Virus record (IMG/VR): IMGVR_UViG_3300005748_000132 | Location: 1 to 20,179 of that record | Source: a virus | Length of the DNA stretch: 20,179 nt | Strand: one strand, 5' to 3' | In this document: positions 2,370 through 17,348 of the stretch, piece after piece | Layout: every line of letters begins with the position of its first letter | How positions within the stretch are numbered: position 1 is the stretch's first letter | Translations under genes and position numbers: made by a program | Notes under the pieces: generated by a model | Database searches by the model: none | What the model was told of the DNA's origin: nothing | The model's input: only the letters and a program-made list of their open reading frames with translations

Positions 2370-2753
2370 TTATATGGTCCAGTATTCACCATTGACAACA
2401 CTATAAGCATATAAGTTACTTACATCATTAACCTGCTTGAACTTACCTAGTACTTCAGTCTTACCATTTTGGTATAATAAAGAAGCTTCTCCTTTATAGT
2501 CTCTGACAAGTATACTCTCTTGATCAAAGCTCTTGAAAGCAAAGTCCTTAATAGCTTCAAATTCTTCCTCGTTCTTAAATATCACCATAAAGCTTTCTTC
2601 CGTACTCCCCTTGTAGCAGCCCTGTATTTGCTTATAAGGTAGTTCTAGCTCTTGTAACATGGAATCTAGTAGCTCTGTACGTTGGTGGTTATTTCTAGCT
2701 GATAAAGTGCTTAATTCTGCTGATAAGATGATAAATTCTTTTAGTTGTTTCAT
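2370..2753 (-). CDS. Hypothetical protein, 127 residues, early region
   Basis: One of the largest early proteins here (MKQLKEFIILSAELSTLSAR...). The N-terminal half is helical. The middle contains GCYKGSTEESFMVIFKNEEEFEAIKDFAFK, which looks like a small alpha/beta fold. The C-terminus (YAYSVVNGEYWTI) is beta-like. I do not recognise a family. AAAGGG lies 5 bases before the ATG, and a sigma70-type promoter with an extended -10 sits 25-55 bases upstream, so it probably forms its own unit. The promoter carries an ACGCAA-containing sequence also found in the next promoter to the right. Confidence 0.82.
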   Translation of the reverse strand: MKQLKEFIILSAELSTLSARNNHQRTELLDSMLQELELPYKQIQGCYKGSTEESFMVIFKNEEEFEAIKDFAFKSFDQESILVRDYKGEASLLYQNGKTEVLGKFKQVNDVSNLYAYSVVNGEYWTI

Positions 2754-7573: not shown

Positions 7574-7861
7574 TTACCACCCCTGATCTTGATCACTATT
7601 AAAATCCTTCATAAACTGGGTCATTCTACCCCCGACTTCTTGTTCATCCGTTCCTCCTAGAATGAAGGTGATCTTGAAAAGAGTCCTTAATAAAAATTCT
7701 AACACATTTAGTACTCCCAGTAATAAAGTGGGGATCGAAGTAAGTAGTGCTAATATCGTACTTTGTAAGAAAGGGTATTTGAAGTGAACATAGAAACCTC
7801 TAAGTAAAGCTAAAATAAGTATAATTAGTACTAAACTCGTACAAGCTATAACTACTCCCAT
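7574..7861 (-). CDS. Two-helix membrane protein, early region
   Basis: 95 residues with two long hydrophobic segments (MGVVIACTSLVLIILILALL, about residues 2-22, and about residues 34-58, STILALLTSIPTLLLGVLNV). A short amphipathic stretch and a polar acidic tail (GGTDEQEVGGRMTQF...) follow. No signal-peptide cleavage site is evident. It overlaps the upstream gene by 10 bases. As the second gene of the first early operon it may alter the host envelope or block other phages, and a holin is the alternative. No family recognised. Confidence 0.8.
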   Translation of the reverse strand: MGVVIACTSLVLIILILALLRGFYVHFKYPFLQSTILALLTSIPTLLLGVLNVLEFLLRTLFKITFILGGTDEQEVGGRMTQFMKDFNSDQDQGW

Positions 7862-8016
7862 TCGATGTCCCCTTCGTCTTTGTAATCAAAAAAGTCCATA
7901 ATAGCATAACCTCTTTCTAGAGCGTCGTAAAGGACTGTCGCTAAATACTCAGCTTCCTCTTCGTCGAATGTCATGTGCATCATTACCTGATTACGAATTA
8001 CTTCACCTACTACCAT
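7852..8016 (-). CDS. 54-residue acidic protein, first gene of the main early operon
   Basis: Minus-strand gene from ATG 8016 with AAGGAAGCTTG upstream. The peptide (MVVGEVIRNQVMMHMTFDEE...) has a beta-like start and a helical, strongly acidic remainder ending DFFDYKDEGDIEWE. It overlaps the next gene by 10 bases. It is the first gene after the strong promoter at 8144-8172 and its structured leader, so it is probably among the earliest and most abundant products. Such first early proteins often inhibit host enzymes, but nothing specific shows that here. Confidence 0.78.
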   Translation of the reverse strand: MVVGEVIRNQVMMHMTFDEEEAEYLATVLYDALERGYAIMDFFDYKDEGDIEWE

Positions 8017-8080
8017 CAAGCTTCCTTTTATTGTAAAAGCCTTTTATTAGTCTTGCTTAGGACTGAGTCACCTTGCTCTC

Positions 8081-8136
8081 ATGCAGAACATAAGCCAGTC
8101 AGGTAGTAGTCGCCTGATACTTCAAGAGTTCTGCAT
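8081..8136 (-). other. Structured leader of the early transcript
   Basis: ATGCAGAAC (8081-8089) and GTTCTGCAT (8128-8136) form a perfect 9-bp stem. Inside its loop, TCAGG/CCTGA (8099-8103 and 8113-8117) makes a second hairpin. The structure begins only a few bases after the -10 (8149-8144), so it would form the extreme 5' end of the early mRNA. Confidence 0.65.
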
Positions 8137-8143
8137 ACAGTAT

Positions 8144-8172
8144 AAGATATCACAATTCTCCTCTTATGTCAA
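8144..8172 (-). promoter_or_regulatory. Main leftward early promoter (sigma70 type)
   Basis: On the minus strand, consensus TTGACA (8172-8167), 17 bp and TATCTT (8149-8144) preceded by TGA. It drives the leftward genes starting at 8016. Confidence 0.75.
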
Positions 8173-8506
8173 GTCCTTTCTTTAAATAAGTTTAAGACAA
8201 TAGAAGCGGCATTATCTACTACTAGATAACTAAGTTTAAACTCTTTGCTCAAACCATGAAGCTTAAAGGATTCTCTTTCGAGGTAGTACCAAATGCTGCT
8301 TCCGAAGTAGGCTCCGCTAGTTTCCTACACACATCTTTACAAAGGTTGTGCCTATGGTGACACTTATACTCTCACTTTCTCTCGTCCTACTCAGGTTTCC
8401 CTTACTCGACGGTTACTGATAAGAGTCCCTTAGCTTTTATTTATTGTCGAACTAAGGACTGTAATCTCGACTTACTTTAGGTTACTGCCAAAGTAGATAA
8501 ATGCTA
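8173..8506 (-). ncRNA. Putative structured noncoding RNA
   Basis: No gene is visible on either strand. Read leftward, at least seven local hairpins follow one another: 8496-8488 with 8481-8471; 8460-8452 with 8433-8424 (9 pairs, one bulge); 8411-8383, closed by AGG-GAAA-CCT with an internal loop GAGTA/GAGTAG; 8328-8324 with 8311-8307; CTC-GAAA-GAG (8282-8273); 8268-8259 with 8250-8243; and a perfect 7-bp stem 8229-8212. GNRA loops occur only in the leftward reading, fixing orientation. A promoter-like sequence precedes it. I recognise no known RNA class. Confidence 0.45.
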
Positions 8507-8512
8507 CTGCCC

Positions 8513-8541
8513 AGATTAGCACAAAAATTGGTTTTTTGCAA
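8513..8541 (-). promoter_or_regulatory. Possible leftward promoter of the structured RNA
   Basis: On the minus strand, TTGCAA (8541-8536), 17 bp and TAATCT (8518-8513) preceded by TGC, an extended -10. No gene follows for over 300 bases, which supports a noncoding transcript. The match is moderate. Confidence 0.45.
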
Positions 8542-8606
8542 GTATTTTTTACAAGTGTCTGTAATTACAAGGATATAGTAAATAAAGCTTATAATACACC
8601 CTTAAG

Positions 8607-8621
8607 ATTACCAACTATATA
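8607..8621 (+). promoter_or_regulatory. Phage late-type promoter motif, copy 2
   Basis: ATTACCAACTATATA ends 17 bases before the ATG at 8639. It precedes the first rightward unit, which includes the terminase genes. A TATAAT (8590-8595) lies just upstream, but only with a weak -35 at 19-bp spacing. Confidence 0.65.
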
Positions 8622-8638
8622 TCAGAAAGGAGAAAACT

Positions 8639-8923
8639 ATGGAGAATATGAAAGGAGCTTTGAAAGCTTTGAGAAAGATAGCTGGACTAGAGAAGGAGTC
8701 TGAGGAGGTTAACCCTGACCAAGAATACTTCGACAATCTAAGAGCTAAAAAAGACGCTAGGGTTGAGGACATTAAGGAAAACAGAGTTGATAGCTTTGAA
8801 GAGATGTTAGATATGAAAGATAAGGTTGAATCTATGCCAGATGAGAGACTTCCTGAAGAAAGAAGAAAGGCTTTAGCTAGGGAAATGCAAAGAAAGCAGA
8901 AGCAGGAACTAGGTATTAAGTAA
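8639..8923 (+). CDS. Charged coiled-coil protein, start of the late region
   Basis: 94 residues (MENMKGALKALRKIAGLEKE...), nearly all charged helix with heptad character over residues 30-90. AGAAAGGAG precedes the ATG at good spacing. It is the first gene after late promoter motif copy 2, and its stop overlaps the next start. Position just before terminase suggests a packaging or virion role, but it is not recognised. A scaffold-like or internal virion protein is possible. Confidence 0.8.
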   Translation: MENMKGALKALRKIAGLEKESEEVNPDQEYFDNLRAKKDARVEDIKENRVDSFEEMLDMKDKVESMPDERLPEERRKALAREMQRKQKQELGIK

Positions 8924-9069
8924 TGAGCGCGATAGATGTCACTAAAGATAACGAGCAGCTTAAGAAGATAAAAGAGAAGTTGGAAAAACTTAAGATAGAG
9001 CAGTTAAAACAAAAAGAAAAGCAACGACTTAGTAAAATAAGAACTCAAGTTAAAAAACAGGAGAAATAA
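8923..9069 (+). CDS. 48-residue lysine-rich coiled-coil protein
   Basis: Small gene whose ATG overlaps the TAA of the preceding gene (TAATG) and whose own TAA overlaps the next ATG by one base, so it fits exactly between them. The peptide (MSAIDVTKDNEQLKKIKEKL...) is a single Lys/Glu-rich coiled-coil helix. The perfect tiling and the same strand support translation. Function unknown. Confidence 0.72.
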   Translation: MSAIDVTKDNEQLKKIKEKLEKLKIEQLKQKEKQRLSKIRTQVKKQEK

Positions 9070-16064: not shown

Positions 16065-17348
16065 ATGGCTAATCAAGTAGATACGCTAAACGGTCTGTAC
16101 AAAGAAAGGTACGCAGACAAAGTAAAACAATTAGTACCTGATCACGTAAAACTATACAATGCAGTTAAATTTGATACTGCTAAGAAACAAGGTAAAAGCT
16201 ATGTTGAACCTGTAATCCTTTCTTATGAGTCTGGATTCTCTTATGGTGGAACTTCTGGTTCTTTATTTGATCTTAACGACGCTAAAGAATTTAAAATGGA
16301 AGAAGCTTCTGTTCAAGCTAATGAGCTTGTTCTTCGTTCAGCTATTTCTATCGGAGCTTTAAATAGATCCGCTAGTGATGCACAATCAATCGAAAAAGCT
16401 ATGAGTTTAATGGTTGGTAACATGCTTAACTCTATTTACCACAGATTAGAAGTTCAAATGTTCTATGGACAGTCTGGACTTGGAGCTGTTAAAACTGCTA
16501 ACACAGCTGCTACTGCTACTAAAACAATCGAAATCAAAGACGCTGAGTGGGCTGCTGGTATCTGGAATGGTACTACTGGTGCTGAAATTGAAATCTTTGA
16601 TTCTGCTGTTTCTGCTAAGTCTATCTCTGATGCAATTTACATTACTGGCTATTCTTTAACTGATAAAACTATCACTATCGCTAAAGTTTCTGGTGGTAAC
16701 TTCGCTTCTCCTGCTGATGATGTTGCTGTTGATGATGTTATTTACTTTAAAGGTGCTGCTACAACTTCTGCTAAAAACGAGTTCTTAGGTATTCACGGAA
16801 TCTCTGAGGAAAATACTTCTCTTTTTGGTATCACTAACACTAACGAGCCACTTTTCCAAGGTTCTGTAGTTAATGTTGGAGCTGACGTTAATAACCCTGC
16901 TGTTCTTTCTCAAGCTAAGATCGAAGAAGGTATTTCTGCAATGGTAGAAAAAGGTCTTATGGAAGAAGAAGTTTGCGTTTACGTAAACCCTAAGCAATGG
17001 GATGACCTATTGACTGAACAAGATGCTAAGAGAGTTCTTGACTCTTCTTACTCTTCTAACAAGCATCAGTCTGGTGCTAGAGAGATCGAGTTCTTCGGAC
17101 AAAACGGAACTATCAAAGTTAAAGCTTCTACTTTTGTTAAGCAAGGGTATGCATACATCGTATGTGAAAAAGAGCTTAAGAGAATCGGTTCTACTGAAGT
17201 TACTTTCGACAGACCAGATGGCGGTAAATTCGCTAAATTACTTGAAGGTAAGCATGGTATCGAAATGAGATGTATGACTGATGAGTCACTATTCACAGCT
17301 AGACCAAGTTCTATCTGTCAATTAAGATACATCTTAGCTGAAAAATAA
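16065..17348 (+). CDS. Major capsid protein
   Basis: 427 residues, forming the shell. The N-terminus (MANQVDTLNGLYKERYADKV...) and the segment ANELVLRSAISIGALNRSAS, followed by VGNMLNSIYHRLEVQMFYGQ, are typical of coat proteins in this P22-like/podovirus head lineage, which adopt the HK97 fold. Residues about 150-250 are a Thr/Ala-rich, beta-like stretch that could be an inserted domain, as in P22 coat, although I cannot confirm its fold. The C-terminal part (YVNPKQWDDLL..., GIEMRCMTDESLF) fits the P- and A-domain pattern. AAAAGGAAATT precedes the ATG. Own promoter, leader hairpin and downstream terminator suit the high expression needed. Confidence 0.95.
   Translation: MANQVDTLNGLYKERYADKVKQLVPDHVKLYNAVKFDTAKKQGKSYVEPVILSYESGFSYGGTSGSLFDLNDAKEFKMEEASVQANELVLRSAISIGALNRSASDAQSIEKAMSLMVGNMLNSIYHRLEVQMFYGQSGLGAVKTANTAATATKTIEIKDAEWAAGIWNGTTGAEIEIFDSAVSAKSISDAIYITGYSLTDKTITIAKVSGGNFASPADDVAVDDVIYFKGAATTSAKNEFLGIHGISEENTSLFGITNTNEPLFQGSVVNVGADVNNPAVLSQAKIEEGISAMVEKGLMEEEVCVYVNPKQWDDLLTEQDAKRVLDSSYSSNKHQSGAREIEFFGQNGTIKVKASTFVKQGYAYIVCEKELKRIGSTEVTFDRPDGGKFAKLLEGKHGIEMRCMTDESLFTARPSSICQLRYILAEK

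Follow-up and report, generated by a model that had tools for sequence, protein, structure and literature searches.

Introduction

Phage factors for host takeover and anti-defence are almost all known as proteins. The packaging RNA of phi29 is a non-coding transcript of an early promoter that adopts a defined fold, and it is found throughout its lineage and is essential there. The stable RNAs C and D of T4 are structured, stable and without an assigned function, and are encoded in the tRNA cluster. The put RNA of HK022, also structured and made from a phage early promoter, is a cis-acting leader of two hairpins. GOLLD and ROOL RNAs are associated with phages. Both are large, ornate structured RNAs with no role assigned (Rfam; PMC12286853). 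The passages of the phiKZ Grad-seq study that deal with such transcripts describe unannotated phage non-coding RNAs seen during infection, one of them intergenic, to which they assign no role (PMC8545117).

Here we describe a phage locus that, judging from sequence comparison, probably encodes a real and previously undescribed non-coding RNA transcribed from a host-type promoter. The stretch analysed, referred to as the window, comprises 20,179 nucleotides, the first bases (1-20179) of a virus record 84,179 bases long. The predicted RNA resembles the phi29 packaging RNA in being an early-promoter phage RNA with a defined fold but, unlike that lineage-wide RNA, it is replaced or missing in close relatives. 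With T4 RNAs C and D it shares, by description, the character of a structured phage RNA, theirs lying in a tRNA cluster unconnected with the position described here. Whereas put is a cis leader, the RNAs found at this position occur in both orientations, and a distinct early promoter comes after the window RNA. GOLLD and ROOL differ from the window RNA in size and structure, and it has no Rfam match. The phiKZ RNAs are alike in being phage-encoded, unannotated and, where the study presents them, of no known role; the phiKZ RNA set beside ours is described as ~100 nt and belongs to another phage group, the likeness being one of description (PMC8545117).

Results

A gene-free interval between divergent early and late units

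In the window, a leftward unit of small genes starts at 8019, and rightward genes run from 8639 on, among them terminase, portal and, at 16065, a conserved capsid-like gene. The early, leftward unit carries a gene of the S-adenosylmethionine lyase family (2370-2753, minus strand; PF23780, E 9e-24), which we take to be a T3-type anti-restriction gene. The lineage is essentially uncultured, since the nearest named phage, a Silvanigrella phage, shows only 27% portal identity. The RNA interval lies within the head-gene region, ~2 kb ahead of terminase, and is flanked by two promoter-like elements:

8144-8172, minus strand: predicted promoter of the early operon, TG-bearing TTGACA-17-TATCTT, agreeing with the consensus at 10 of 12 positions, downstream of the RNA
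8607-8621, plus strand: late promoter-like element around ATTACCAACTATATA, ahead of the first late gene; a TTTAACAACTATA-like motif recurs

At the predicted start of the early mRNA, a strong hairpin, ATGCAGAAC...GTTCTGCAT (8136-8081, minus strand), apparently opens a leader of ~115 nt. The TTTAACAACTATA-like motif precedes late genes in relatives and elsewhere in the same phage record (G000). The late promoter-like motif ATTGACAACTATATA is repeated at 8607, 12145, 15844 and 17711 of the window, at 29315 and 35214 of G000 and at many loci, often with AATACAC 12-14 bases upstream, and it resembles the aCTA element in the late promoters of phage 7-11 (PMC8948821). No polymerase or sigma factor reading this motif was found; a search for a T7-type RNA polymerase (PF00940) gave no match, its control being likewise silent.

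The first-pass annotation had described positions 8173-8541 as free of genes, and we agree. Open reading frames within or touching the interval are at most 34 aa long, except one of 55 aa that starts at 8536, exits the interval and extends to 8703. A coding role is disfavoured by the indels and two-sided stem changes seen in relatives. The same annotation recognized no known RNA class, and a scan against Rfam 15 likewise gave no match at gathering score, the window and its relative L012 producing only far sub-threshold matches by E-value. By ARAGORN and Rfam, no tRNA or tmRNA gene fits the RNA interval; a sub-threshold tmRNA match (8473-8550, 8 bits) overlies the promoter of the RNA and was rejected. 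Similar DNA was absent from 50,697 phage records, a capsid alignment scan of GTDB genomes returned no match, and a literature search found no description of the locus among the papers it covered.

A leftward RNA is supported by covariation and promoter register

The terminase, portal and capsid-like proteins served as queries and retrieved more than 100 loci (L numbers), and the divergent interval was read in ~25. The window, L010, L012, L016 and L037, together with the more divergent L033 and L043, constitute type A, in which the promoter lies on the late side and points leftward. In the whole-RNA alignment of L012, L016 and L037, the leftward structure has 96.5% of cells paired, 22 of 77 pairs are altered on both sides, and none of 500 shuffles matches this. 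When the structures were slid along the alignment as a control, pairing fell to 33-44%, a difference inflated by the derivation of the structure from these three sequences themselves. The covariation in homologues that had been proposed as a check is present in the stems of these relatives.

The strand assigned earlier is also borne out. The consensus fold of the three relatives reaches -60.15 kcal/mol leftward versus -41.0 rightward, and G-U cells in pairs number 37 leftward versus 17 rightward. The extended -10 promoter noted ahead of the RNA was found again, and its register is kept:

8513-8541, minus strand: predicted RNA promoter, TTGCAA (8541-8536), 17-base spacer, extended TG, TAATCT (8518-8513); register kept in relatives

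A leftward TTGNNN-17-TANNNT, with a spacer of exactly 17, stands at the corresponding place in all seven type A intervals, against a chance expectation of 0.62 such patterns per kb per strand. A rightward reading of the window RNA, prompted by the leftward early promoter at 8172-8144, was rejected on G-U conservation and promoter register.

A covariance model of the first three hairpins, R1, was built from L012, L016 and L037 with the window excluded. Its top window match lies at 8504-8408 on the minus strand (E 0.0042, filters off); over 733 kb the window match scores 18.9 bits (E 0.15), driven by the 5' box, hairpin H1 and the AGTC that follows. The same model finds L010 at E 6e-8 and has no match in L033, L043 or the remainder of G000. 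The window is placed in type A by the promoter register at 8541-8513 and the R1 match over H1-H3; the model of H4-H6, R2, misses it, and elsewhere in the same phage R2 gives a weak match (E 0.19).

Parts and fold of the window RNA

The predicted parts of the RNA, its 5' end placed by promoter spacing and its 3' end by the last conserved box, are as follows:

8194-8506, minus strand: predicted structured non-coding RNA, ~310 nt, both ends approximate
8473-8495, minus strand: hairpin H1, TACTTT/AAAGTA, then conserved AGTC; matches R1; mean pair probability 0.86
8428-8471, minus strand: hairpin H2, CCTTAG (8457-8452)/CTAAGG (8433-8428), with pseudoknot GTCGA (8471-8467)/TCGAC (8450-8446)
8368-8426, minus strand: hairpin H3, ACTCTTAT/GTGAGAGT, its inner stem ending in a GAAA loop (8402-8393); pair probability 0.93
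8307-8363, minus strand: small hairpins H4 (8363-8348) and H5 (8328-8307, GTAGG/CCTAC); window pair probabilities 0.63 and 0.48
8212-8302, minus strand: weaker 3' part, GAAGC/GCTTC (8302-8258) enclosing CTC-GAAA-GAG, then TTATCTA/TAGATAA (8229-8212)
8194-8205, minus strand: conserved 3' box TTCTATTGTCTT; TTCCTATTGTCTT in L016, TTCTAATTGTCTT in L037, CCCTATTGTCTA in L033

Mean pair probabilities of H1-H5 in the window range from 0.48 to 0.98. H1 is formed by other pairs in L010, L016 and L037, and H5 covaries among relatives. The place of the pseudoknot is occupied by GTCA/TGAC in L010, L012, L016 and L037, its fourth pair being G-C in the window and A-U in the relatives. The sixth pair of H3 is U-G in the window and in the same four relatives, where a rightward RNA would read A-C. 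The combination of AGTC, a hairpin with a pairable GAC loop and a neighbouring helix of 8 bp or more occurred in 4 of 20,000 shuffles of the window sequence with AGTC fixed, under a descriptor of pseudoknot, H2 and H3 whose ranges were composed with the window sequence already in view. Toward the 3' end, the order of stems is similar in relatives, and in single-sequence folding the outer H6 stem and the last stem have near-zero probability. The 5' half of the window copy is well supported, by model, pairing and order of elements, and the 3' half less so, its evidence being stem order and the conserved box.

All the features named by the first-pass annotation are present in the sequence. AGG-GAAA-CCT and CTC-GAAA-GAG lie at 8402-8393 and 8282-8273, and the perfect 7-bp stem is present at 8229-8212. 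The stem reported with nine pairs was retained in part: CCTTAG/CTAAGG accounts for 6 bp, but the three further pairs cross the bulged G8427 and compete with the next helix, and we prefer the 6-bp H2 plus that helix because this arrangement is favoured in relatives. The GAGTA/GAGTAG internal loop, which had been read as a designed motif, sits in the inner part of H3; this part is not conserved, and the loop differs in L012, L016 and L037, so that the reading finds no support.

Folding energy had been suggested as a further check, and it proved ordinary, with z near -1. Relative to shuffled sequence, the interval 8173-8541 has z of -1.0 leftward and -1.4 rightward, and the refined bounds 8190-8506 have -0.8 leftward and -1.8 rightward. 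However, the strongly covarying rightward family described below, type B, also scores only -2 to +1, which makes folding energy a poor test here. An energy criterion of this kind would wrongly reject the RNA, given that covariation and promoter register support it despite its z.

Different RNAs occupy the same slot in relatives

Other relatives carry other candidate RNAs between the early and late genes, in rightward orientation:

L009:78-330, L014:550-825, L015:2660-2930, L022:2118-2335, L023:2728-2950, rightward: predicted type B non-coding RNA, ~220-280 nt
L026:2155-2378, L039:3575-3825, L041:3962-4190, L055:868-1110, rightward: predicted type B non-coding RNA, further loci
L002:5945-6340, L029:2791-3170, rightward: type C, third RNA-like region; promoters TTGTCA-17-TACAAT and TATAGT; common GGGAGCNAACCTTAAGAGACT
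L031:1440-1700, L071:1094-1390, rightward: possible fourth kind of RNA; promoter TTGACA-17-TAGTAT and TACTAT

In all nine type B loci a TTGACA-like promoter sits on the early side and points rightward, and behind these sigma70-like promoters the predicted fold consists of a closing helix with internal hairpins. Across the nine sequences, 97.7% of cells are paired and 26 of 44 pairs are altered on both sides, a result matched by none of 500 shuffles. From these comparisons, type B is a second new RNA of the slot and the clearest RNA met in the analysis. It has no meaningful Rfam match and no match in phage records, and one exact pattern was without a match in GTDB genomes. A likeness of type B to RNase P or a group I intron, noticed by eye, received no support from Rfam.

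The promoters of type C and of the possible fourth kind are also rightward, TTGACA-like and on the early side. A type C hairpin covaries, with TTGCG/CGCAA in one copy versus CTTCG/CGAAG in the other, and in L031 and L071 a long non-coding stretch separates the promoter from the late motif. In L046, L047, L097, L104 and L113 the slot is empty, with ~50 bp between the early and late genes, upstream of the late motif.

These arrangements lead us to propose, tentatively and at somewhat less than even confidence, that the position is an exchangeable slot for early RNAs, in which folded RNAs of at least three or four unrelated kinds, pointing either way and each preceded by a host-type promoter, swap or vanish, the window holding one new family. 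Such turnover would fit an arms race of trans-acting takeover or anti-defence factors. A fixed slot with varied folded RNAs behind host-type promoters would indicate an under-explored RNA layer in early infection, and the sequences given here supply search-ready models for it.

A proposed role and its alternatives

The reading we prefer, at about even odds, is that the window RNA is a stand-alone early RNA that acts in trans, a reading in which transcription, ends, trans action and target are all predictions. Shortly after the DNA enters the cell, the host RNA polymerase, carrying the main sigma factor, would start leftward at the 8541-8513 promoter; immediate synthesis on infection is suggested by the host sigma70 pattern of the promoter. 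The product would be a ~310-nt RNA whose first half folds into H1, the pseudoknotted H2, the long H3 and the small H4 and H5, with a less certain fold in its second half. It would then act in trans, most likely on a host protein or RNA, aiding takeover or counter-defence, and would be one of several unrelated structured RNAs kept or lost in the early/late slot. Action on the host is suggested by the expected early synthesis and by the changing content of the slot, and the SAM lyase gene in the early unit hints at a takeover or anti-restriction region. A trans-acting accessory RNA also fits better than a lineage-wide leader or packaging role because the slot holds unrelated RNAs of opposite orientation, or nothing, an argument drawn from the layout of the genomes.

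The RNA shares its direction with the early operon, which comes immediately after it. No terminator-like site was found in 7800-9000, and with no intrinsic terminator clearly in place where the RNA ends, read-through into the operon is possible. The leftward transcript might accordingly be a cis-acting leader that continues into the early genes and controls them through its fold, by antitermination like that of HK022 put, by mRNA stability or by attenuation. We judge this unlikely, although it deserves serious weight: the early operon has a better promoter just downstream (8172-8144), and the slot RNA is reversed in some relatives and absent from others. Control of the phage's own late switch, with the RNA targeting the late promoter, late mRNA or a phage transcription factor, would account for the position of the RNA beside the first late promoter-like motif in all relatives having it, but relatives with an empty slot retain the same late motif, and we regard this role as rather improbable.

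Proximity to terminase and the head genes is what a virion or packaging RNA like that of phi29, or a folded DNA serving as a packaging or replication site, would lead one to expect. Relatives with similar portal and terminase nevertheless lack the RNA or carry an unrelated one, and the promoter, together with the G-U pairs kept in the leftward reading, indicates RNA instead of folded DNA, which leaves this explanation very improbable. That the hairpins arose by chance in a functionless spacer would agree with a folding z of about -1 and with the failure of R2 on the window; the covariation, the kept promoter register and the match to R1 speak against it and make it highly improbable.

Outside the window, the same phage encodes a nicotinamide phosphoribosyl transferase adjacent to a ribose-phosphate pyrophosphokinase (L142:11161-13421, minus strand), which together form an NAD-salvage pair, and it also encodes a ribonucleotide reductase.
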